This document shows positions 51,068-64,000 of a stretch of DNA of 64,000 nucleotides, piece by piece. The notes below the pieces were generated by a model. That model was given only the letters and a program-made list of their open reading frames with translations, was not told the origin of the DNA and searched no databases. Source of the stretch: Oscillospiraceae bacterium (lineage in GTDB: Bacteria; Bacillota; Clostridia; Oscillospirales; Ruminococcaceae); contig JALEOL010000057.1 of NCBI GenBank assembly GCA_022766785.1, positions 1 through 64,000 of the forward strand, given 5' to 3'. The translations under genes were made by a program, and so were the position numbers. Positions within the stretch are counted from its first letter, which is position 1. Every line of letters begins with the position of its first letter.

Positions 51068-52792
51068 ATGAGCGAGAACGTCGATGTTCTGAACGGAAAG
51101 CTGTCGCGGCTGGAACAATGTCTGCTCGCCGACGGAGTGTTCGACAGGTGCGCGAATATTGCCGCAGACCGCTCAGCGGCGTTTGTTTCCGTGTGTGATA
51201 CAAACGAGCGTGCTTACGTTTTTCGGGCAGCGGTTGATACTCCGCTCGCTGCGTGGAAAAAGGTATGTGCGCAGGCGGCTGAATTTGTCGGCAGGTACGG
51301 TTTTCAGCCGTTTTGGGTCAAGGCAGATATCATGGCGAATGCGGAAAAGGTGGCTTTCTCTGAATTTCAGCAGATGATAGCTGTAAGCCGCAGCAGTTTT
51401 TTCCGCAGGGGAGTCGCGTTCGATGACGGGCTAGAGACCGCGCTCATTGAGGCGGAACTCAACGGCAGCCGTGTGATATCCTACAAAAAGCACATGATGG
51501 AGCTTGCCACGGTGAACGCCTACCTTGCTTCCTGCGAAACTCTGACGCTTCGGGAATTTCCCGAGCAGATAACCCTGTTTGACTGCGAGAGCCGTTTCTG
51601 CGATGAGAACGGAGAGGTGTTCCGTCTTTACGGCAGCGGAAACAACTGCGGCAGGCGTATCACGGGCGGGTTTGACGCAGACGCCGCCCTTGTCGTAATG
51701 GAGACCGCATGGCAGTATCTTGAAATGCAGGTGGGATTTGACGGGAAGTTTGAGTATGGCGTGTATCCGATAGATCATCGGGAGATTCCGGGCTACAATA
51801 TCCTGCGCCATGCTTCTGCTATCTGGAGCCTGCTGTGCTCCTACCGCATAAGCGGCGATAAATTCACACTGAACCAGATCATCAAGGCGGTAGGCTTTCT
51901 GGTGAGGAACACATATCGGTTATTCCCCGAGCGCGAGGGCAGGGAGAATACCGTGTTCCTTGCGGATAAGACCCACGGCGAGGTAAAGGTCGGCGGAAAT
52001 GCACTGGCGGTCATTGTGCTGACGGAATTCATGAGCGTCACCGGCAGCGACAAGTACGTTAAGCTGTGCAGGGAGCTTGGCAACGGTATACTGGAACTGT
52101 TCGACCAGAGCGACGGCAGCTTCTGGCATGTGCTGGAGTTCCCGGGGCTTGGGCGTAAGGAGAAGTTCCGCACGGTGTATTACGACGGCGAGGCGGTATT
52201 CGCACTGTGCAGGCTTTACGGGCTTTTCGGGGAGCAGAAATGGCTTGACGCCGCTGCTCTTGCCGCAGACAGGTTTATTCGTGAGGGCTACGAGAAATAC
52301 CGCGACCACTGGGTGGCGTATGCGATGAACGAGCTGACGAAGTATCTGCCCGAGGACAGGTATCTGGGTTTCGGGCTGAAAAACGCGAATGTAAATCTCC
52401 GCAGGATACGTGCGCAGGACACGACTTACCACACATATCTCGAGCTGCTGTGCGTCACCTTTGAGATGTACTCGCGGATAACAGAGCAGGGGCTGGAATG
52501 CTCCTATCTCCCGAAATTCAGGGCGGAGGAGCTAGTGGATACCATATTCTACCGGGCAGACTATATGCTCAACGGCTATTGCTATCCCGAATATGCGATG
52601 TATCTGAAATATCCGTCGGCGGTGCTGGGGGCGTTTTTCGTGCGGCATGACGGTTTCAGGATAAGGATAGACGATATACAGCATTTTTGCAGCGCCTATT
52701 ATTCATTCTACAGGAATTACGACAGGCTGGCGGCGATAAGAAAACAATTCGTTCAGGAACGAGAGGGCGGAGAAAATGGCAGTGGAACTTGA
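51068..52792 (+). CDS. (alpha/alpha)-barrel, glycosidase/epimerase-like protein associated with the CapA gene
   Basis: Helical repeats with aromatic/acidic motifs (HASAIWSLLCSYRISGD, VKVGGNALAVIVLTEF, YYDGEAVFALCRLYGLFGEQKWLDAAALAADRFI). Confidence 0.55.
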   Translation: MSENVDVLNGKLSRLEQCLLADGVFDRCANIAADRSAAFVSVCDTNERAYVFRAAVDTPLAAWKKVCAQAAEFVGRYGFQPFWVKADIMANAEKVAFSEFQQMIAVSRSSFFRRGVAFDDGLETALIEAELNGSRVISYKKHMMELATVNAYLASCETLTLREFPEQITLFDCESRFCDENGEVFRLYGSGNNCGRRITGGFDADAALVVMETAWQYLEMQVGFDGKFEYGVYPIDHREIPGYNILRHASAIWSLLCSYRISGDKFTLNQIIKAVGFLVRNTYRLFPEREGRENTVFLADKTHGEVKVGGNALAVIVLTEFMSVTGSDKYVKLCRELGNGILELFDQSDGSFWHVLEFPGLGRKEKFRTVYYDGEAVFALCRLYGLFGEQKWLDAAALAADRFIREGYEKYRDHWVAYAMNELTKYLPEDRYLGFGLKNANVNLRRIRAQDTTYHTYLELLCVTFEMYSRITEQGLECSYLPKFRAEELVDTIFYRADYMLNGYCYPEYAMYLKYPSAVLGAFFVRHDGFRIRIDDIQHFCSAYYSFYRNYDRLAAIRKQFVQEREGGENGSGT

Positions 52793-55700
52793 AGCACCAA
52801 AGGGTTTTGCGGCGGCAGGAAGAGACGGGGCAGTCGTACTGCGCTGGAAGCCGGTCAGCGGCGCTGAGGGCTACAGGGTGTTCTTTTATGCGGCGGACGA
52901 GCCGGGAAAGCTCATTAAGGCGAGGTATTCCAGGGACTGTGAGAAGGGAATTCTCGGTTTCTGCAACGGAAAGATGTACCTTGCCGAGGTGTGCGCATTC
53001 GCAATGGTGAACGGCAGGGAGGTGTGCGGCAGGAGGTCGGCAAGGCTTCCGTTTGTTCCAGTTTCGGAGAAGCTGCGCGCGCAGAACATCATCTGCCTGG
53101 AGCCTGGACAGACAGCCCGGATAAAATGGGAGGCGGATAACCAGGTGCCGTCGGCTCTGTTTTCGTCGGATAATGCCGCAATTGTTGCTGTGGACGGTTC
53201 AGGGAAGCTGTTCGCAAAGGCTCCCGGCAGCGCGAATATCACCATTACCTCCAGCGACAGGCAGAGGTTCGTGACCCGGGTCGAGGTGGGGCGCAGGCTT
53301 TACCGCGGCGAGAGCAGGGCGGTGCTGATGTTCGCCGGGGATATGATGTGCACCGTGGCTCAGCAGAAAGCGGTGGCGGAGCGTGGATACGACTTCTTTG
53401 ACCCGTTCAGACAGTTGAGGGGCATTCTGTCCCGGGCTGACTTTTCGGCGGCGGTGCTTGAGACCTGCTGCTGCGACGGAGCGGCTTTCGAGGGCGAGCA
53501 GCGCAGGAACCCTGACGGCTCGCCGAACGGCAATGCGCCTTCGACGTTTATCTCCGCGGCGGCATATGCCGGCTTTGACGGGCTGATAACAACGGCGAAC
53601 CGCAGCTGCACGGGGCGTATGCTCTCTGATACCGTATCGGAGATAAAGCGCAGCGGAATGCGGAATATAGGCACTTTCGGGGACTGTCCGGCGGTGTTTG
53701 ACGTGCGTGGCATCAGGGTCGCGGTGATCGCCTGCACGATGGTGACAAACAGCAATCAGGAGCAGCCTGACGGTGTTTACAGCCGGGAATATTTCACCAG
53801 CCGGGTGGAAGCGGCGCGCGGTATGGGCGCGGAATTCATCGCCGCATACATGCACTGGGGCGTTGTGAATTCCCATGCGGTGAGGACTTCGCAGGCGGAC
53901 GAGGCGCATTTCATGGCGGAGGCAGGTGCCGGACTTATCATCGGCTCTCACCCGCATATGGTACAGCGATTCACGACGATACACACCTCCGACGGAAGGG
54001 ATGTGCCGTGCGCGTACTCCCTGGGCGACCTCATTTCAACTATGTCCGAAATGGACGGCAACCGCGACGGTATTATACTCCGGGCGGAGCTTCACAGGAA
54101 AGAGGACGGAATTTCGTTGAAATGCTCCTGCATTCCGGTTATGACGGAGGACAGGGAATGGGGCGCAGAGGTGGTGCCGGTGTTCCCACCACACAGCGAG
54201 CTGAGCCGGGTTTCCCTGGAGCGCACTCAGGCGGCGGTGGGAAAGGGGCTTCAGTGCAGCCCGTACAAACCGAGGGTGCTGCTGTGCGGCTCTGAGCAGC
54301 TGGACAGGATATTTTCTGACGGGCAGGGCTTCCGGTGCAGCAGAGCGGCTATGCGGCTGTCCCAGCTTTCTCTTGGCTGCCGGAGGGCGGCAAGAGAGAT
54401 CGAAAGCAGCGCAGGCGACAAGCTGCGTCTGGATCTTAGCAAGGATATCGCCGGTGCGGTGCTTGCGATAAAGCCGGATCTTGTCGCAGTTGATCTTATG
54501 GCGGCGGCGCGCACTCCCTGCTGGACGCTCCCCGGAGAGCCGGGAGAGGAGCCACAGTTCTTCACGGACACAAAGGCGTTCCGTCAGTCGGAATTCTTCC
54601 GCAGGAATCGCGGCAGGCTGACGATGATAAAGCCACCGTTCGGGGAGAGCGTGTGGAAGCCGCTTCTCGGCAGATACTGCGAGCGGCTGACCGCTGCTGT
54701 CCCACCGGAAAGGATAATCCTGTTCAGAAACAGGTTTTCTAACCACAGCGCAAAGGACAACGAGCTGCGCGTCTGCCGCCCGAAAAAGAGCATGGTGCAG
54801 TTCCTGCGGGATATGGAGGAGCACTTCATAGCGAAGGTTAAGCCGCTTGTGGTGGATATTTCGGGGTATTACTTCACGGCAGGCGAGAACTCCGACGACC
54901 ACGAGCCTTTGTATTACCACGACGCATACCGGGCGGCGGTGGAGCTTTCCTGCGGCAGCGGACGCACCTGTGTTTCTCTTCCGGACGAAAGAGTGTGGTT
55001 CAGCAGGGTCATGAAGTATTACCAGAACATGACCGAGCGCTCATATTTCAGCTGGCTGCTGGATATGAACTGCGCCGCCGACCAGCTGATCGCCTATACC
55101 AGCGCAGAATTTGCCGCATCAAATGCCCAACGGCTGCTGCGGCTGAAACGCTCCGGGAACTGTGAGCTTTCCGCGGTGAAGGACTTTTTTGCAGAGGACA
55201 GCGGCTCCGGGGAGCTTATCCGGGCGGCTGACATAATTCACACGGTACTGGCAGGGCGGCTGGATCGTACATATGAGTTCTTCGAGCCGGCGTTCCGAGG
55301 GCATTACGGGATAATCCGCAAAATGATAAGGCTGCTTTCCACAGAGACGGGAGCCGCAGTCAACGAGGAGAACGCGGAGCTTGTATTTCTGCTCAGGGGT
55401 AAGCCGCAGCTGCGCAGATATCTTGCGTCCCTCAGCAGGAGGACGGTGGACATCTGGGGCAGCAGCGTTTCCCGGGAGTCGGCGAACTGCTGCCGGGAGG
55501 CGCACATCGGCACTTACATCTACAAGCAGCCGCCGATACTTGCGTTCGAGCCGCCGGTGGACGTGGAGCTTCCCGAGGGAGCGGAGGCGTTCAACGGCAG
55601 CAGGTGGCGCAGGAGAAATTTCCGTGACGCGCTGTTAAGAAGCGGCGACGCGGACATCAGCGGCAGCGAGTCCGGCTGGATCATCGTGGACTTCTGCGAC

Positions 55701-56237
55701 CTTATCAGCCGCATGACGGAGTACCGCGGGGCGCTGTTCGAAACGGACGATTTTATCCGCAGGACGGAGTTCTACAGGAGCATTCAGGAGGAATGCCGGG
55801 AATGCTGGCTGTTCGAAAGGCGTGACATGAAAACCTGCGCGGAACGGATAGCGCGCTTCGGCGAGCTGTTAAAGGCGAAGTACGGCGAGCATATTATCCT
55901 GATAAAAACCGAGCCGAAGGACAGGTACATAGACCTCGATCACCGTCTGAAGAAGATGGAAACAGACAATATGTTCATGATAAAAAAGCGGTTCATTTCG
56001 CTTTGCGAGGAACGCTTTGCGAGCGTCACCGGCTGCTGTGTCATCGATATATCGCGGAAGTTCTACGCTTCGGACAGCTTTCCGCTGGGGGGCGTTGATA
56101 TCGTGCATTACGAGGACGAATTCTACCGGCAGGCAGGGGCGTATATCAGCGAGATGATCAACGGCTCGGGCAGGCGCGTTTTCAATACCGTTGATGAGAA
56201 TTATTTACTGCTGAGGGATATGAGAGCGCAGAGATAA
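52776..56237 (+). CDS. Large multidomain protein: FN3-like + BIG2-like + CapA (poly-gamma-glutamate synthesis-like) + two DUF6270-like modules
   Basis: FN3-like VVLRWKPVSGAEGYRVFFYAA; BIG2-like ALFSSDNAAIVAVDGSGKLFAKAPGSANITITS; CapA-like MFAGDMMC..YMHWGVVNS..IIGSHPHMVQ..YSLGDLIS; C-terminal WGSSVSRESANCCREAHIGTYIYKQPP. Confidence 0.7.
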   Translation: MAVELEAPKGFAAAGRDGAVVLRWKPVSGAEGYRVFFYAADEPGKLIKARYSRDCEKGILGFCNGKMYLAEVCAFAMVNGREVCGRRSARLPFVPVSEKLRAQNIICLEPGQTARIKWEADNQVPSALFSSDNAAIVAVDGSGKLFAKAPGSANITITSSDRQRFVTRVEVGRRLYRGESRAVLMFAGDMMCTVAQQKAVAERGYDFFDPFRQLRGILSRADFSAAVLETCCCDGAAFEGEQRRNPDGSPNGNAPSTFISAAAYAGFDGLITTANRSCTGRMLSDTVSEIKRSGMRNIGTFGDCPAVFDVRGIRVAVIACTMVTNSNQEQPDGVYSREYFTSRVEAARGMGAEFIAAYMHWGVVNSHAVRTSQADEAHFMAEAGAGLIIGSHPHMVQRFTTIHTSDGRDVPCAYSLGDLISTMSEMDGNRDGIILRAELHRKEDGISLKCSCIPVMTEDREWGAEVVPVFPPHSELSRVSLERTQAAVGKGLQCSPYKPRVLLCGSEQLDRIFSDGQGFRCSRAAMRLSQLSLGCRRAAREIESSAGDKLRLDLSKDIAGAVLAIKPDLVAVDLMAAARTPCWTLPGEPGEEPQFFTDTKAFRQSEFFRRNRGRLTMIKPPFGESVWKPLLGRYCERLTAAVPPERIILFRNRFSNHSAKDNELRVCRPKKSMVQFLRDMEEHFIAKVKPLVVDISGYYFTAGENSDDHEPLYYHDAYRAAVELSCGSGRTCVSLPDERVWFSRVMKYYQNMTERSYFSWLLDMNCAADQLIAYTSAEFAASNAQRLLRLKRSGNCELSAVKDFFAEDSGSGELIRAADIIHTVLAGRLDRTYEFFEPAFRGHYGIIRKMIRLLSTETGAAVNEENAELVFLLRGKPQLRRYLASLSRRTVDIWGSSVSRESANCCREAHIGTYIYKQPPILAFEPPVDVELPEGAEAFNGSRWRRRNFRDALLRSGDADISGSESGWIIVDFCDLISRMTEYRGALFETDDFIRRTEFYRSIQEECRECWLFERRDMKTCAERIARFGELLKAKYGEHIILIKTEPKDRYIDLDHRLKKMETDNMFMIKKRFISLCEERFASVTGCCVIDISRKFYASDSFPLGGVDIVHYEDEFYRQAGAYISEMINGSGRRVFNTVDENYLLLRDMRAQR

Positions 56238-56285: not shown

Positions 56286-57470
56286 CTGAAAAACAGAATA
56301 CTTTCAGCGGCGCTGTGCCTGCTGCTTCTGACCGGGTGTTCCGAAAAGGAGCAGCAGCCCGTTATGACCGCTTCGCAGACCGCAGGGCAGGTCGTGAGTG
56401 AGCCTTCTGATACCGCTGTTCCGGTGGTTTCGTCCGAGGAGGAAATACTCACGGAGGACAGCGTGGCTCCTACCGTGGAGCAGTCCGCTGATAATACCAC
56501 GGATACAGCGGAAGAAAGCCGCGAAGAACCCACGGAAAGCCCTCCGGAGAACACCGTAGAGCCGGAGAGTACAGCCCCGGCAACATCAGCTGCGGCAACT
56601 CAGACCACTACCGTACAGACCACCATACAGACCACAGCCCCGGAGCCTGCGGAGGTGGTGATACCGGAGGTGAGGGTGCCGCTCTCGCCGGGGAAGGACG
56701 TTGCAGAGAACGAAAAGGTACGGGTGGACTACAGCAATGCTCCCGAGGGCTACATATCGGTATGCTGGAACGAGACCGGGAAGGCGGTAAAGCTGCGGAT
56801 AGTATGCGGCGAAACCACCTGCGACCATGACGTGCCCACCGGGGGAACGACTGAGTACTACCCCCTGTCCTGCGGCAGCGGCAGCTACACGGTGCAGATA
56901 TACGAGCAGACCGAGGGGAGCCGCTACACCAAGGTGCTGGAACAGGAATTCACCGCAAAAATAACCAACGAGACATCGCCGTTCCTTTACCCGAACAGGT
57001 ATGTGAAGTTCAGCAGGAATTCCGCCTGCGTTGAAAAGGCGGCTCAGCTCTGTGCAGGAAAGAACGGCACGATCGAAAAGACCGCCGCGATATTCGGGTG
57101 GATCACCGAAAACGTCACCTATGACCGGGAGCTTGCGGCAACGGTAAAGAGCGGCTACGTCCCCGACCCGGACAGCGTGCTGGCAAAGAAGTCCGGGATA
57201 TGCTACGATTACGCGTCGCTTATGGCGGCTATGCTGCGCTCGCAGGATATCCCCACACGGCTTGTCGTGGGTTATGCAAAGGAAAACATCTTCCACGCGT
57301 GGAACGAGATATGGACTGAGCAGACCGGCTGGATAACCCCGGAGCTGCTGCTTTCAAAGCAGGGCTATAATCTCACTGACGCGACATTCTACGCCGGCGC
57401 GGCGGATAAGGACAAGATCGCCGGATATATTTCGGACAGCGGAAATTACTCGGCGCTGTACTACTATTGA
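56286..57470 (+). CDS. Transglutaminase-like lipoprotein (probable CTG start)
   Basis: In-frame upstream (M)KNRILSAALCLLLLTGCSEKEQQ with lipobox LTGC; KSGICYDYASLMAAMLRSQDIPTRLVVGYAKENIFHAWNEIW (transglutaminase C/H/D pattern). Confidence 0.85.
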   Translation: MKNRILSAALCLLLLTGCSEKEQQPVMTASQTAGQVVSEPSDTAVPVVSSEEEILTEDSVAPTVEQSADNTTDTAEESREEPTESPPENTVEPESTAPATSAAATQTTTVQTTIQTTAPEPAEVVIPEVRVPLSPGKDVAENEKVRVDYSNAPEGYISVCWNETGKAVKLRIVCGETTCDHDVPTGGTTEYYPLSCGSGSYTVQIYEQTEGSRYTKVLEQEFTAKITNETSPFLYPNRYVKFSRNSACVEKAAQLCAGKNGTIEKTAAIFGWITENVTYDRELAATVKSGYVPDPDSVLAKKSGICYDYASLMAAMLRSQDIPTRLVVGYAKENIFHAWNEIWTEQTGWITPELLLSKQGYNLTDATFYAGAADKDKIAGYISDSGNYSALYYY

Positions 57471-57485
57471 ACCGGAGGGATTTTT

Positions 57486-58535
57486 ATGAGAGTAAAGAAG
57501 CTGGATAATGCCCAGGTGGAGTATATCTGCGAGCAGCTTTCCATGATCATCGGCTCCGGTATCGGCGTCGCTGACGGAATGGAGCTGCTGTGCGGCGATA
57601 TCGCGGAGGGTACGCTGAAGTCCGCCTGCATGGAGATCGCAGAAGCAGTCGGAAAGGGCGAGGCTCTGTCCGCTGCGGTAAGGGGCACGGGCAGGTTCCC
57701 TGCATACGCCGCGGATATGATTGAAGTCGGCGAGATGAGCGGCAAGCTGGAGGAGGTGCTCCGGGGACTTGCGCAGTACTACGACGAGAGGGACGATATC
57801 CGCAGGGCGCTGCGCGCGGCGGTGCTTCACCCCATGGTATTGCTGCTGATGATGACGGTGGTGATGATCGTGCTGGTGGTAATGGTCATTCCGATGTTCG
57901 GGGATATCTTCTCGCAGTTCGACAGCTCGGTGAGCGGAACGGTGAAGAATACCGTGGAGCTTGCATATAATTCCGGTACGGCTATCATGATAGTTCTGCT
58001 GGCGCTGATCGCGGTCTCCGCCGTTATCGCGCTGGTCTCGAAGTTCTCAAAGTCCGGCGGCGTCCCGGGGCGTATCCTGTCGGCGCTGCCGGTTACGAGG
58101 GGGATTGCAGAGAAGCTCTCCCTGTGCGACCTGACAAAGGCGATAAGCATAAATGTAAGCGCAGGTATCTCCCCGGAGGATATGATAATGCGGTCGAATA
58201 TCCGCAGCTTTATCCGGGACAGGCGCGTCGCCGCAAGATACGACGACTGCGAGAAGCGCGTTATAAACGGCGAGAGCTTCCCGGACGCAGTGATAAACAG
58301 CAGGCTGCTGCCGCCGCTTTACGCAAAGTCGCTGAAGCTGGCTTACGCCTCCGGCAGCTTTGAGAGCGTGTGGAAGCGCGTAAGCTCCACCTATCACGAG
58401 GAAACTCAGCGCAGCCTTGTGAACCTCACCGCCGTTGTCGAGCCGGCGATGATAATCGTTCTGGGAGTGCTGATCGGCGCGATACTGCTTATGCTTATGA
58501 TCCCGCTCATGAATATAATGTCGGTGCTGGGGTGA
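57486..58535 (+). CDS. Type II secretion/type IV pilus inner membrane protein (PilC/GspF family)
   Basis: LSMIIGSGIGVADGMELL; PAYAADMIEVGEMSGKLEEVLRGLAQYY; VVEPAMIIVLGVLIGAILLMLMIPLMNIM. Confidence 0.92.
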   Translation: MRVKKLDNAQVEYICEQLSMIIGSGIGVADGMELLCGDIAEGTLKSACMEIAEAVGKGEALSAAVRGTGRFPAYAADMIEVGEMSGKLEEVLRGLAQYYDERDDIRRALRAAVLHPMVLLLMMTVVMIVLVVMVIPMFGDIFSQFDSSVSGTVKNTVELAYNSGTAIMIVLLALIAVSAVIALVSKFSKSGGVPGRILSALPVTRGIAEKLSLCDLTKAISINVSAGISPEDMIMRSNIRSFIRDRRVAARYDDCEKRVINGESFPDAVINSRLLPPLYAKSLKLAYASGSFESVWKRVSSTYHEETQRSLVNLTAVVEPAMIIVLGVLIGAILLMLMIPLMNIMSVLG

Positions 58536-58539
58536 GGTA

Positions 58540-58854
58540 ATGAAGAAGATGAGATTCAGGGCGGTCACGGTGATTCTGGGAGCGGTGCTGTTCGCTGTGA
58601 TGATACTGTGGCTGGTGCTGGCTCTGGGGAATGCTTCGAAGGCTTCCGAAAGCGAGAGGCTGGCTCAGGTGAAGCAGTCGGTGGAGAACGGCATAACCCT
58701 GTGCTACGCCACCGAGGGCGCTTACCCGGAGAGCCTGGAATATCTCACGCAGAGCTACGGCGTGGTGTATGACGAGAGCCGTTACCTGGTGCACTATGAG
58801 CGCTTCGCCGCAAATGTGCGCCCGACTGTGACGGTGATCCGGAGGGAGAGCTGA
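58540..58854 (+). CDS. Small single-TM pseudopilin-like protein
   Basis: N-terminal hydrophobic helix; EGAYPESLEYLTQSYGVVYDE resembles pseudopilin beta-region; between pilC and pilT. Confidence 0.65.
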   Translation: MKKMRFRAVTVILGAVLFAVMILWLVLALGNASKASESERLAQVKQSVENGITLCYATEGAYPESLEYLTQSYGVVYDESRYLVHYERFAANVRPTVTVIRRES

Positions 58855-58855
58855 T

Positions 58856-59302
58856 ATGAAATTTCGCAGTGAAAGGACGCTTGCCGATACTGCATCGGCG
58901 GTGAGCAGCATGCTGCTTTTCGTGCTGTTCGCGCTGTGTATGCTTATGGCTGTGGCGGTCGCGGCGGACACCTACGGCAGGATAGAAAAGGGCTATCAGC
59001 AGTCCTTCGGGTCGGCTTCGTCGATAAAGTATGTCGCCAACAAGCTGCGCTGTGCAGAGAATGTCACGCTGCTGGACAACGGCGGCGCGGCGGTGGAGAG
59101 CGACGGCATGGTGAGCGTGATATGGTGCTCCGGCGGAGAATTGTACGAGAAATACGCCCCTGCCGGCGGCGAAATTACGACACAGGGCGGCGACAGGATA
59201 TCCAGCGCCGATTCGCTGAGCATTACCGAAAACGGCGGCTTGTATGTGATAACGGTCACAGCCGGGGAAGAAACCTCCTCGGTCATGGTGCGGAGAGGGT
59301 GA
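58856..59302 (+). CDS. Single-TM protein of pilus locus (DUF4860-like)
   Basis: N-terminal TM helix, extended beta-rich C-terminal domain, locus position. Confidence 0.6.
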   Translation: MKFRSERTLADTASAVSSMLLFVLFALCMLMAVAVAADTYGRIEKGYQQSFGSASSIKYVANKLRCAENVTLLDNGGAAVESDGMVSVIWCSGGELYEKYAPAGGEITTQGGDRISSADSLSITENGGLYVITVTAGEETSSVMVRRG

Positions 59303-59736
59303 TCTTACTGAACAGAAAGAGCAATATCCTGCTGTTTGCAGAAATGACTATCGCACTGCTGTTCTTTGTTATCTCCTTTGCCGTGATGATCAGGGTGTTT
59401 GCGGCGGCGGACGGGCTGGAGCGCAGGGCGCAGCGGCGCGAAAAGGCGGTGCTGTGCGCGCAGTCGATAGCGGAGGCTTATTCCGTGAGCGGCGACACCG
59501 GGACGGCTCTGAGGCTGGTTTTCGGCGAGGATATCCCCCAGGAGGATATCACGCTTAACTCAGAGCTTGTGCCGGAGGATAACGGAGAAATAACGCTCAC
59601 GCTTTCCGAGGAGAAAGATGATACGGCAGCCGGGACTTATTCCACGCTGAGCATTCGGTTCGGGTATTCCGGGGAGGAGCTGTTTTCGCTGGACTGCGGA
59701 GCCTATATCCCACGGGGAGGTGCTGCGGTTGAATAA
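59299..59736 (+). CDS. Single-TM protein of pilus locus (GTG start)
   Basis: (M)ILLNRKSNILLFAEMTIALLFFVISFAVMIRVFAAADGLERRAQRREKAVLCAQSIAEAYS; overlaps the preceding stop. Confidence 0.65.
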   Translation: MILLNRKSNILLFAEMTIALLFFVISFAVMIRVFAAADGLERRAQRREKAVLCAQSIAEAYSVSGDTGTALRLVFGEDIPQEDITLNSELVPEDNGEITLTLSEEKDDTAAGTYSTLSIRFGYSGEELFSLDCGAYIPRGGAAVE

Positions 59737-60217
59737 GAAAAAGCGGTTTTTCGGCAGCACGGTGGGCGTTGGATATATTTCCATGATGCTGATATTTACG
59801 GTGATCTGCCTGACGATACTGGCGGTGCTGAGCTTCCAGGCGGTGTATTCCAACGACAGGGTGAGCAGCCGCAGCGAGAGGTTCACACAGGAATACTACG
59901 ACGCGGACATGGCGGCGAAAAGGACTCTGGCTCAGCTTGACGGCATAGCGCTGGAGTGTGCGGAGAGCTTTTCGTTTGAGGAGAACTTCATCAGCGGCGC
60001 GGAGGAGCTTCCGGGGATAACCGCGGCGAGGGTGCCCGGAGGGGTGAGGGCGGATTATTCCGCGAGAATAAACGACCGTCAGCGGCTGTATGTCAGCGTG
60101 GTGTTTTACGGCGATACTGCGGCAGGCAGGTACGAGGTGCTGCAATGGCGCAGCGTAACGGAGGATAATTCACCGGACAGCACGCCGGCGGTTTGGGACG
60201 GCAGCGATCTGGTGTAA
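59729..60217 (+). CDS. Single-TM protein of pilus locus (TTG start likely)
   Basis: NKKKRFFGSTVGVGYISMMLIFTVICLTILAVLSFQAVYSND; RBS gggaggtg. Confidence 0.6.
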   Translation: MNKKKRFFGSTVGVGYISMMLIFTVICLTILAVLSFQAVYSNDRVSSRSERFTQEYYDADMAAKRTLAQLDGIALECAESFSFEENFISGAEELPGITAARVPGGVRADYSARINDRQRLYVSVVFYGDTAAGRYEVLQWRSVTEDNSPDSTPAVWDGSDLV

Positions 60218-60390
60218 CACCGATCCCCATTAAAATTCAGGAAATCTTTGCAGAAATCCAGCGCCGCTATCTGCGTCAAGTTCCCTTGCAAGGCATACAG
60301 CCTGGCGGCGGTCACTTTTCTGGAGATCGGCACTGTCTTTCAGCAAATCTTTTCCTTCATTTTAATGAATATTAGTTTGAAAGGTGAACT

Positions 60391-61452
60391 ATGGACATTC
60401 TTGAAATTCTGAAAAAAGCGGCGGCGGATCACGCTGCGGATATTTTTATAGTTTCCGGCGCGGTGCTGAGTTACAAGGCGCAGGGAAAGATGTACCGTTT
60501 GGGTGACGAGCCGCTCTCTCCCGATGACACAAAGGCGCTGGTGGTGCAGATATTCAGGCTGGCGAAATTCGACATCAGCGAGGACAACATACCGGAGCGC
60601 GAGAAGGATTTTTCCCTGTCAGTACCCGGCGTGGGGCGCTTCCGTGCAAATATCTACAAGCAGAGAAGCTCATGGTCGGCGGTGCTGAGATATGTTCCGT
60701 TTGAGCTTCCCGACCCGGTGAAGCTGGGTATCCCGGAGCAGGTGATGCAGCTCAGCGAGAGCCGCAGCGGTATCGTGCTGATCACCGGCGTTGCGAGCAG
60801 CGGTAAATCCACCACGCTTTCCTGCATAATCGACAGGATCAACCAAACCAGGAACGGGCATATAATCACTATTGAGGATCCTATCGAATTTCTGCACCGG
60901 CACAATAAGTGCATTGTCAGCCAGCGCGAGATAAGCATCGACACCGACAGCTACATAGACGCGCTAAGGGCTGCGCTGCGCCAGTCGCCGGACGTAATTC
61001 TGCTGGGCGAAATGAGAGACCACGAGACCATAAGCGTTGCAATGACCGCCGCCGAGACCGGTCAGCTGGTTCTGTCCACCCTGCACACCCTGGGCGCTGC
61101 GAACACTATCGACCGTATAATCGACGTATTTCCCATAAATCAGCAGCACCAGATCAGGGTGCAGCTGTCAATGGTGCTGAATGCCGTTGTGTGTCAGCAG
61201 CTGCTGCCCTCGGTGGACGGGGGACTTATCCCGGCATTTGAGATAATGACGATGAACAACGCTGTGCGCACGCTTATCCGCGACCAGAAAACGCATCAGA
61301 TCGACACGATATTGCAGTCCTCCGACGGAATGCAGACCATGGACAGCTGCATAGCGGGGCTTTACAGAGACGGAAAGATAACCGCCCGGACTGCTGTGGA
61401 GCACGCATATAATCCCGAGATAATGGCAAAGCGTATTTCGGCAGCAAACTGA
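60391..61452 (+). CDS. pilT: PilT-type twitching/secretion ATPase
   Basis: GVASSGKSTTLSCIIDRIN; ITIEDPIEFLH; QSPDVILLGEMRDHETISVAMTAAETGQLVLSTLHT. Confidence 0.93.
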   Translation: MDILEILKKAAADHAADIFIVSGAVLSYKAQGKMYRLGDEPLSPDDTKALVVQIFRLAKFDISEDNIPEREKDFSLSVPGVGRFRANIYKQRSSWSAVLRYVPFELPDPVKLGIPEQVMQLSESRSGIVLITGVASSGKSTTLSCIIDRINQTRNGHIITIEDPIEFLHRHNKCIVSQREISIDTDSYIDALRAALRQSPDVILLGEMRDHETISVAMTAAETGQLVLSTLHTLGAANTIDRIIDVFPINQQHQIRVQLSMVLNAVVCQQLLPSVDGGLIPAFEIMTMNNAVRTLIRDQKTHQIDTILQSSDGMQTMDSCIAGLYRDGKITARTAVEHAYNPEIMAKRISAAN

Positions 61453-61724: not shown

Positions 61725-64000
61725 ATGAGCGAGAAGAAGCGCATCTGGGGCAAAAAGTCCGCGGCGGTCATCGCTTTTGCCGCGTCGCTGCTTGCTACTA
61801 ATACCGCGTCTGTATTAGCGGCAGGCGAGGAGACCCCGGGGGATCTCCGGGATCACACACTAACTGATCTTGACCACACCGGAGATGATGTTGTATACTA
61901 TGAGCTTGCTGAAAACGTTTATAGGGTGGACAGCAAGTCGCAGGCGGTCAATAATTTCTACGGCGTTATGAATACGGTGAACGATTTCGGGCTTTATGCC
62001 AAGTCCACCACGATCAACCACCTCGAGTGCAACGCCGCAGTTGAAAGCATAAACGAGTTCAATCTGCAGTACTGCAATATCGTGAGGACCGGTTCTATCG
62101 GTACCGGCAGATATACCGTGTACCTCGGCGCTGCTCCCACGAATACCAACAGGCTTGACATGGCGAGCATTCCTGCTGACGCTGATGTTGAGGTAGTGCT
62201 GAATTTCGGCTTTGAGCGTGAAGATACCGATAACGGCAACAGGGCTGGTTTCAACGCCAACGGTACGCATTATGAGCTGCTGAATGTCAACACGTCCAGG
62301 CTGACTATACGCAACCCCTATGCAGACGAGACGCAGTATGATATCCAGGGGACGCTGGATACTATCGCTGACAGCGGTGATAAGCTTCTTAAAGACGTTG
62401 GGAAGGTAAAGGGAACCACCAGCTTCCGCGCCGCTCTTGAGAGTGCATATGAGAATATCGTGAGCGGAAAGGTAAAGCCCGGTCAGACGATGATCATTAC
62501 CGCCGACGCGAACGACATCGCTTACAATCAGAATTATGAGAGCGCTCTGGTAAAGCTGCTTACTGAGAATAACGGGGTCAGCGTGATCATCAACGTTGAT
62601 ACCTCTGATTTTGAGGGAGATCACTTTGATTTCGGCAATATCAACGGAACAGCATTCAATAAGGGCTGTGCATATGTTGTATGGAACTTCGGCAGCTATG
62701 AGAAGGCGCTGAGCGCACCCGCCGGAGGAATTATTGCTGCGCCTTATGCGACCGTTTCTACCGACAGGGGTCATGTGAACGGCGCGCTTATCTGCGATAC
62801 ATTCAACCAGAATAACGAGATACATCAGGTCACAAGACCCAAGTATACAGAGCCTGATGTTCCTGAGCCCGTTGAACCCGATGATCCTACGACCGAGGAG
62901 TCTTCTGAGGAGACCACCGAAGAGCCGGACGCACCTACTACAGACGAGCCGGACGTACCGACTACAGACGAACCGGACGTACCTACCACGGACGAGCCGG
63001 ACGTACCTACTACAGACGAGCCGGACGTACCGACTACAGACGAACCGGACGTACCTACCACAGACGAGCCGGACGTACCTACTACAGACGAACCGGACGT
63101 ACCTACTACAGACGAGCCGGACGTACCTACTACAGACGAGCCGGACGCACCTACTACAGACGAACCGAACGTACCTACCACAGACGAGCCGGATGTACCT
63201 ACTACGGACGAGCCGGACGTACCTACTACAGACGAGCCGGACGTACCTACCACAGACGAACCGGACGTACCTACCACAGACGAGCCGGATGTACCTACCA
63301 CGGACGAACCGGACGTACCGACTACAGACGAGCCGGACGTACCTACTACAGACGAACCGGACGTTCCAACCACAGATGAGCCTGATGTTCCGACCACAGA
63401 TGAAACCACCGAGGAAACTACAGAGGAAACCACTGAGGAGCCTGATAAGCCTGTTGATCCTAAGGATCCCGATGAACCAGACGATCCTGTGAAGCCGGAA
63501 GACCCGGACGATCCCGATGAACCTGACGATCCTGTGAAGCCGGAAGTCCCGGACGATCCTATCGTGCCGGATTCACCTGTAAATCCTCCCAGACCGCCGA
63601 GACCTTCACGTCCTGACGATCCTGTTGACCCGATCGATCCTGTAATTCCGTCCGATCCGGAAACGCCGGTGGATCCTGACGAGCCTGTTACACCTACCGA
63701 TCCGGAGGTTCCGGACGATCCCGAACAGCCGGAGGATCCCGAGCTGCCGGAGGATCCCGATGATCCAGACGAACCTACTGACGATGTTGAGCCGATCTAT
63801 GATGATTCTGAGGAAGCAGACACAGACAGCGACGTTGATGACGCTGATCCCGACGAGGTAGAGTTCCTGCCGGACGATGTACCGCTGGGTGAGACCCCGG
63901 TAGATCATGATCCTAACAATCCCATTTATGATGATATCATTATTGATGATATCGGAGTTCCAATGGGAGAAAACCCCGACATGGGCGTCGAAGGCCCTGT
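61725..64000 (+). CDS. Secreted choice-of-anchor-A-like adhesin with (TTDEPDVP)n repeats; 3' end outside window
   Basis: Continuous frame MSEKKRIWGKKSAAVIAFAASLLATNTASVLAAGEE...NNFYGVMNTVNDFGLY...AGGIIAAPYATVSTDRGHVNGALICDTFNQNNEIHQ; no stop before 64000, so not in the ORF track. Confidence 0.85.
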   Translation, partial: MSEKKRIWGKKSAAVIAFAASLLATNTASVLAAGEETPGDLRDHTLTDLDHTGDDVVYYELAENVYRVDSKSQAVNNFYGVMNTVNDFGLYAKSTTINHLECNAAVESINEFNLQYCNIVRTGSIGTGRYTVYLGAAPTNTNRLDMASIPADADVEVVLNFGFEREDTDNGNRAGFNANGTHYELLNVNTSRLTIRNPYADETQYDIQGTLDTIADSGDKLLKDVGKVKGTTSFRAALESAYENIVSGKVKPGQTMIITADANDIAYNQNYESALVKLLTENNGVSVIINVDTSDFEGDHFDFGNINGTAFNKGCAYVVWNFGSYEKALSAPAGGIIAAPYATVSTDRGHVNGALICDTFNQNNEIHQVTRPKYTEPDVPEPVEPDDPTTEESSEETTEEPDAPTTDEPDVPTTDEPDVPTTDEPDVPTTDEPDVPTTDEPDVPTTDEPDVPTTDEPDVPTTDEPDVPTTDEPDAPTTDEPNVPTTDEPDVPTTDEPDVPTTDEPDVPTTDEPDVPTTDEPDVPTTDEPDVPTTDEPDVPTTDEPDVPTTDEPDVPTTDETTEETTEETTEEPDKPVDPKDPDEPDDPVKPEDPDDPDEPDDPVKPEVPDDPIVPDSPVNPPRPPRPSRPDDPVDPIDPVIPSDPETPVDPDEPVTPTDPEVPDDPEQPEDPELPEDPDDPDEPTDDVEPIYDDSEEADTDSDVDDADPDEVEFLPDDVPLGETPVDHDPNNPIYDDIIIDDIGVPMGENPDMGVEGP
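62935..63415 (+). repeat. About twenty tandem 24-bp repeats encoding TTDEPDVP
   Basis: Iterated acctactacagacgagccggacgt with mainly synonymous variation. Confidence 0.95.

Follow-up and report, generated by a model that had tools for sequence, protein, structure and literature searches.

A compact clostridial gene cassette with a PilT-family motor and pilin-derived subunits: a candidate autonomous machine of type IV filament ancestry

Introduction

Can a machine derived from a type IV pilus run on a PilT-family ATPase as its only motor, with subunits that no prepilin peptidase has processed? The question is raised by a block of six genes at positions 57486-61452 of a 64,000-nucleotide stretch of DNA (the window: assembly GCA_022766785.1, contig JALEOL010000057.1, positions 1 to 64,000) from an Oscillospiraceae bacterium. 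Type IV filament (T4F) machines are held to have, among their core parts, a motor of PilB type and the processing of prepilins (PMC10191384, PMC6668835). The block has neither a PilB nor a PilD inside it, as a preliminary description of the sequence had said; that description suggested that it may be a minimal secretion or pilus-like machine run by one motor of PilT type. The answer developed here, to which we give a probability of roughly 0.6, is that the block encodes an autonomous T4F-derived machine, in which the motor and its platform move a small complex of unprocessed pseudopilins and the filament is absent or very short.

Composition of the block

The six genes all lie on the forward strand. 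C (57486-58535) encodes a compact platform protein of the GspF/PilC type (349 aa; PF00482, T2SSF, Pfam E 2.7e-38). Behind it stand four genes, set almost end to end or overlapping by a few nucleotides, each for a small protein with one N-terminal transmembrane (TM) helix: s1 (58540-58854), a pilin-derived protein resembling ComGC and major pilins; s2 (58856-59302), a GspJ-like pseudopilin of the DUF4860 type; s3 (59299-59736), a GspI/ComGE-like subunit whose start is a GTG inside a GTGA overlap with s2; and s4 (59720-60217), a GspK/PilX-like subunit for which the TTG at 59729 is a likelier start than 59720. T (60391-61452), a PilT-family ATPase, is the sole motor in the block. The T2SSF and pilT_fam matches bear out this composition as it was first described. 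A seventh gene, TG (56286-57470, forward strand), encodes a predicted lipoprotein with a Transglut_core domain (PF01841, E 8.7e-24). It had been regarded as a mere upstream neighbour, a view that does not hold: TG adjoins C, directly 5', in 68 of 80 loci and is a member of a cassette with the order TG-C-s1-s2-s3-s4-T, seen in the window and in the neighbourhoods of relatives.

The assignment of T is clear. It scores 395.9 bits against TIGR01420 (pilT_fam; cut-off 319.1), has the T2SSE fold (PF00437, E 3.5e-41) and matches the PilT structure 2gsz at E 3.6e-97; against the ComGA model it reaches 130.6 bits, below the cut-off of 300. In block loci the Walker A, Walker B, Asp and His boxes are all retained and the tetracysteine of PilB is absent; an AIRNLIRE-like motif is present. 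The ATPase thus has PilT rather than PilB features, as had been proposed. In a tree the T proteins of the block form one clade (69 rows, support 100/97), within which locus L120 branches first. The platform also stands on its own branch, apart from canonical PilC; the well-supported order of joining is canonical PilC, then the locus L124 (described below), then L120, and among block members L124 and then L120 are nearest to the canonical proteins.

Two genomes depart from the pattern of one block, one motor. At L119 (genome G212) the block has no adjacent T, and the closest gene of the PilT family on that contig lies tens of kilobases off and falls outside the block clade. In G370, which belongs to the same order and is 100% complete, C and s1-s4 are present (L125/L196) without a T2SSE-type ATPase, a nearby TG or a prepilin peptidase; its block is a motor-less derivative.

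Carriers without PilB or prepilin peptidase

In the genome of the window itself, the lack of PilB and PilD fails as an argument. Contig C19 holds just the complete canonical operon against which the preliminary description had staked its case: PilC, a PilM-like protein, a GGFTLVEM pilin, PilD, PilB, PilT and two GFTIVEL pilins. An orphan third PilT paralogue on contig C83 (L007:7073-8128) groups with the canonical PilT of C19. A wider test across carriers of the block was therefore required, and the case for a single-motor, peptidase-free machine depends entirely on relatives in which the canonical system is missing.

Carriers were searched with the Pfam profiles T2SSE and Peptidase_A24, and with a family-specific PilD profile (19 sequences) for which matches were allowed to E<=10. 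By these searches neither a PilB-scale ATPase nor an A24 peptidase is present in 11 carriers that have a motor in the block and are at least 90% complete, eight within the family (G004, G012, G014, G030, G041, G053, G058 and G075) and three outside it (G284, G388 and G472). The PilD profile gives 262-311 bits in the positive controls G000, G002, G021 and G271. A PilD hidden below the Pfam threshold was considered and rejected: that of G002, sub-cut-off in Pfam, scores 311 bits with this profile, and the PilD-less carriers return nothing. The other T2SSE matches in the 11 are weak; in the five genomes examined they are SpoIIIAA (G004, G053, G058 and G075) and RecD2 (G030). G012 has no second T2SSE-type match whatever. 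In G014 the T of the block runs off the end of a contig, and a second, short T2SSE match may be its remainder. The block is autonomous in these 11 carriers, because neither an ATPase of PilB type nor a prepilin peptidase is found anywhere in them, and they lend support to the early suggestion of a minimal pilus-like machine with one PilT-type motor.

The cassette is widespread and maintained. In a family survey of one genome per genus, with C as query, the compact platform (about 350 aa) occurs in 27 of 81 genera, with neighbourhoods showing the order TG-C-s1-s2-s3-s4-T. A phylum-wide sample adds 12 genomes in which s1 is strongly found, and a scan of named genomes with a single C protein adds 38 loci at which a relative of C is encoded, including some of Oscillospiraceae, Lachnospiraceae and Sedimentibacter. 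Carriers amount to dozens of genera, mostly uncultured and often gut-derived Clostridia, and the cassette also turns up here and there in other families of the phylum. Of 80 block loci, 70 have a full and colinear set of the six core genes; many of those without the complete order or an adjacent TG end at a contig boundary. Conservation of the block, proposed at the outset as a check, thus extends in the same order across many families. When the window's block is compared with its three closest relatives, dN/dS is 0.08-0.35 over all seven genes (T 0.08-0.10; C and s1 about 0.2; s4 and s3 up to 0.35). The block is under purifying selection, and a block of pseudogenes is rejected on these values.

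Descent of the small subunits

The four TM proteins had been described as lacking the prepilin site G|FxxxE. This is right for s1 and s2, in which a cross-genus alignment of N-termini shows neither the site nor Glu+5. It needs amendment for the other two: s3 has Glu at +5 in 78/79 homologues and Gly at -1 in just 9/79; s4, without Glu+5, has Gly at -1 in 75/76. GspK/PilX-type subunits likewise do without Glu+5. Wrongly chosen start codons, which might have hidden canonical sites, were considered, and no start choice seen in the same alignment restores one. No correlation is seen between the Gly of s3 and the presence of PilD: G075 and G014, without PilD, still have the Gly.

Where these proteins came from is indicated by a transitional locus, L124 (genome G271), with the order T-C-s1-s2-s3-s4-PilD-TG. 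Its s2 (DUF4860, 54.4 bits) starts KG|YTLVEL; its s3 starts KG|FTLVEV and lies above the cut-offs of PF07963 (N_methyl) and TIGR02532 (GFxxxE); its s4 has NKG|AASVLVVF, to which the conserved Gly of other s4 proteins aligns. The PilD inside the operon is of the GxGD type, with an MGGGD motif. The s1 of this locus is already without the site and retains a weak match to ComGC (19.8 bits, below cut-off). Further motors of the T2SSE type occur in G271; the best is of the Tad type, and none reaches PilB scale.

Comparison of profiles points the same way. An s1 profile, with the invariant motif CY..EG..P, matches canonical pilins with a probability of 96.9% (E 1.8e-10). The window's s2 falls just below the cut-off of PF16152 (DUF4860; E 9.8e-5), which its homologues exceed at L124 and, with 102 bits, at L169, the block locus of the cultured Sedimentibacter acidaminivorans DSM 24004. 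Searches of PDB sequences with the s1 and s2 profiles gave nothing relevant. The AF2 models are consistent with the pilin layout of a long helix followed by strands, and are not proof of it: s1 (pLDDT 86.6) is predicted as a helix over residues 3-59 and two strands, s2 (pLDDT 86.7) as a helix over 3-65 and eight strands. In Foldseek the best probability for s2 belongs to GspJ/XcpW (3nje and 5bw0; 0.97, TM-score 0.45-0.47), with E 0.16-0.18, not significant; for s1 type IV pilins give the top TM-scores (0.32-0.36), none significant.

By their sequences, then, s1-s4 descend from canonical prepilins, and a view of them as non-pilins is not borne out. In the simplest history PilB would have gone and s1 would have lost its site, and the loss of PilD, and of the sites in s2 and s3, would have followed; this order is read from one transitional genome.

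What kind of machine?

In the mechanism we propose, a hexamer of T would drive C, and C would move a complex of s1 (major-pilin-like), s2 (GspJ-like), s3 (GspI-like) and s4 (GspK-like), for which processing by a prepilin peptidase would not be expected in most carriers. Since the cytoplasmic leader would not be removed, s1-s4 probably stay anchored in the membrane. ATP-driven strokes would move a pseudopilin assembly, short or non-polymerising, up toward the cell wall and down again, and TG would act at the wall; in the window's clade, a wall-anchored adhesin would probably be served too. Gene order makes TG, and in that clade the adhesin, the best candidates for the client of the machine. Whether a filament forms turns on cleavage. 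In canonical systems the peptidase removes the leader; the N-terminus can then enter the filament core, and there Glu5 of one subunit pairs with its neighbour's free amine (PMC10191384). A long filament is unlikely without cleavage, and a membrane-held complex of s1-s4 is therefore favoured, with a very short filament as its main rival. A bolder version is a descendant of the type IV pilus (T4P) with no filament at all: motor and platform would act as a force generator on a fixed, uncleaved pseudopilin complex, and its strokes would be passed to a surface enzyme or to the wall. We put this bolder version at somewhat short of even odds. A true short pilus or pseudopilus, extended as well as retracted by T, with s1-s4 polymerising uncleaved or cut by an unrecognised peptidase, is unlikely, though it deserves serious thought. 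The near-invariant Glu+5 of s3 and Gly of s4 speak for it, as does the kinship of s1 to major pilins; there are also precedents, since CpaF in Tad systems is one motor for both extension and retraction (PMC11300603) and extension of the MSHA pilus is helped by PilT (PMC9815625). It must contend, however, with the 11 near-complete carriers in which no A24 peptidase appears even at E<=10, with the absence of a PilB-type motor, and with the loss in s1 and s2 of both the site and the Glu+5 that would pair with a neighbour's processed N-terminal amine (PMC10191384).

Another perspective makes the block an accessory of a resident canonical T4P, served in trans by PilB and PilD and supplying, for example, alternative minor pilins and a second retraction motor. 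The operon on C19, with its PilC, PilD, PilB, PilT and GFTIVEL pilins, fits this, and PilB is found in about half of the carriers within the family. As a general explanation it is rejected on account of the 11 near-complete carriers in which PilB-scale ATPases and PilD are missing; moreover, the block brings a platform of its own, its motors make up a separate PilT clade, and its subunits are without the site that PilD needs. We regard it as improbable. Much less probable still is a sporulation-linked channel of the SpoIIIA kind. SpoIIIA components also resemble secretion systems, and several carriers have SpoIIIAA, but there it is a separate gene; T belongs to the PilT family and not to that of SpoIIIAA, and near-complete G012 has nothing of the T2SSE type besides T. 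Least credible of all is a degenerate remnant of a T4P operon. In its favour are the lack of prepilin sites, PilB and PilD and, in G370, the loss of the ATPase as well; but the dN/dS values are low for all seven genes, the ATPase boxes are intact, the Cys and His of TG are invariant, and the gene order is identical over many families.

Several observations nevertheless weigh against an autonomous machine with little or no filament. The complete T4P in the window's own genome means that cross-use is possible in this organism. Most carriers are metagenome-assembled genomes, the good ones being G004 (3 contigs, 100%), G284, G053 and G012 (98-99%). The transition rests on a single genome, and the T of L124 falls outside the block clade on a long branch. 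The Foldseek E-values are non-significant for the s1 and s2 models alike, and the conservation of Glu+5 in s3 and of Gly in s4 hints at persisting pilin-style packing or processing.

Relation to known systems

The nearest likenesses lie among T4F systems of several kinds. Like the ComM/ComG pseudopilus of Bacillus and Streptococcus, the block is a compact operon of monoderms that joins a platform gene to genes for major-like and minor pilins; the weak matches of the L124 s1 to ComGC and of C to ComGB (80.8 bits, cut-off 240) belong here. In ComM/ComG, however, the motor is ComGA, PilB-type and encoded upstream, and ComC processes the pilins; the block has a PilT-type motor, no ComC and no prepilin site. 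The pseudopilus of type II secretion systems (T2SS; GspF-G-H-I-J-K) offers the same succession of an F-like platform and then major-, J-, I- and K-like subunits, the K-like one without Glu+5; the block differs in its PilT-like motor, in the lack of GspE, GspO, GspL/M and a secretin, and in subunits that are probably unprocessed. With the type IVa pilus it shares a PilT-family motor, a PilC-family platform and an s1 derived from major pilins, but it is without PilB, PilD and PilM/N/O, and the 11 carriers lack PilB and PilD genome-wide; no PilM was found in block loci with a profile of the PilM-like protein of C19, and PilN and PilO were not searched separately.

Loci without a peptidase or without prepilin sites have been described before. 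MSHA pilus loci likewise have no prepilin peptidase, but these systems systematically co-occur with another that bears one (PMC6668835), and the block occurs without one. Certain Tad-like Gram-positive loci also have no site-bearing protein in the operon (Imam et al. 2011, PMC3244431); these retain TadA, TadC and the TadV peptidase, and neither a PilT-type motor nor a transglutaminase is reported for them. Surveys of the superfamily have defined a system by its ATPase, its platform and a major pilin that can be recognised, a missing peptidase being taken as borrowed (PMC6668835), and a Gram-positive survey began from ComGA and PilB (PMC3244431); the block could escape either. The literature searched yielded no mention of DUF4860, the family of s2, and no description of a PilT machine without PilB. 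The block thus shares ancestry and two core parts with T4F systems; two defining parts were tested for and are absent, and the system is undescribed in that literature.

Surroundings of the cassette

The ATG-started reading frame of TG spans 56364-57470, but in translation the frame extends back to an LLTGC lipobox, for which the CTG at 56286 is the only candidate start seen and the probable one. The Cys and His of the catalytic motif are invariant in 74/74 homologues; conservation of the third catalytic residue is not clear. Just 5' of TG, positions 52776-56237 encode a protein of 1153 aa with regions that by eye resemble CapA (poly-gamma-glutamate) and Big2.

The large adhesin gene first noticed behind T is indeed there, as a clade-specific companion: it follows T by 121-363 bp in 24 of the 26 loci of the window's clade (L133-L161). 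In the window the putative cell-wall-anchored adhesin (61725-64000, forward strand; PF20597, pAdhesive_15, 50.1 bits) has DEPDVPTT repeats, and its frame runs past the window to about 64070, with a tail read by eye as NPxxG-TM-KRKK. The machine may serve it as a client peculiar to this clade. Further along the same contig, C53, phage-structural-like genes (portal-, capsid- and tail-like by eye) lie beyond the window, about 3-10 kb after the adhesin (L045:12384-19621).

The gap between s4 and T holds an inverted-repeat element (60228-60367, strand unassigned), a long hairpin with 17-nt terminal arms 106 nt apart (minimum free energy -51.4 kcal/mol, z -5.3). It is absent from every other locus fetched, and so specific to this genome among them; it has the look of a small insertion, mobile or regulatory.

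Implications

The cassette suggests a pilus motor turned into something simpler and so far unstudied. If the reading without a filament is true, this would be, to our knowledge, the first machine of the T4F family to lack both a prepilin peptidase and an extension motor. A widespread lineage without the peptidase or the PilB motor, together with a relative that still holds the peptidase and the sites, amounts to a natural experiment, and many of the carriers in which it has been run are gut-derived Clostridia. It asks what Glu+5 does when no processed N-terminus is available for pairing, whether a PilT-family hexamer can do without a second motor, and how far a machine of this kind can shrink and still work.

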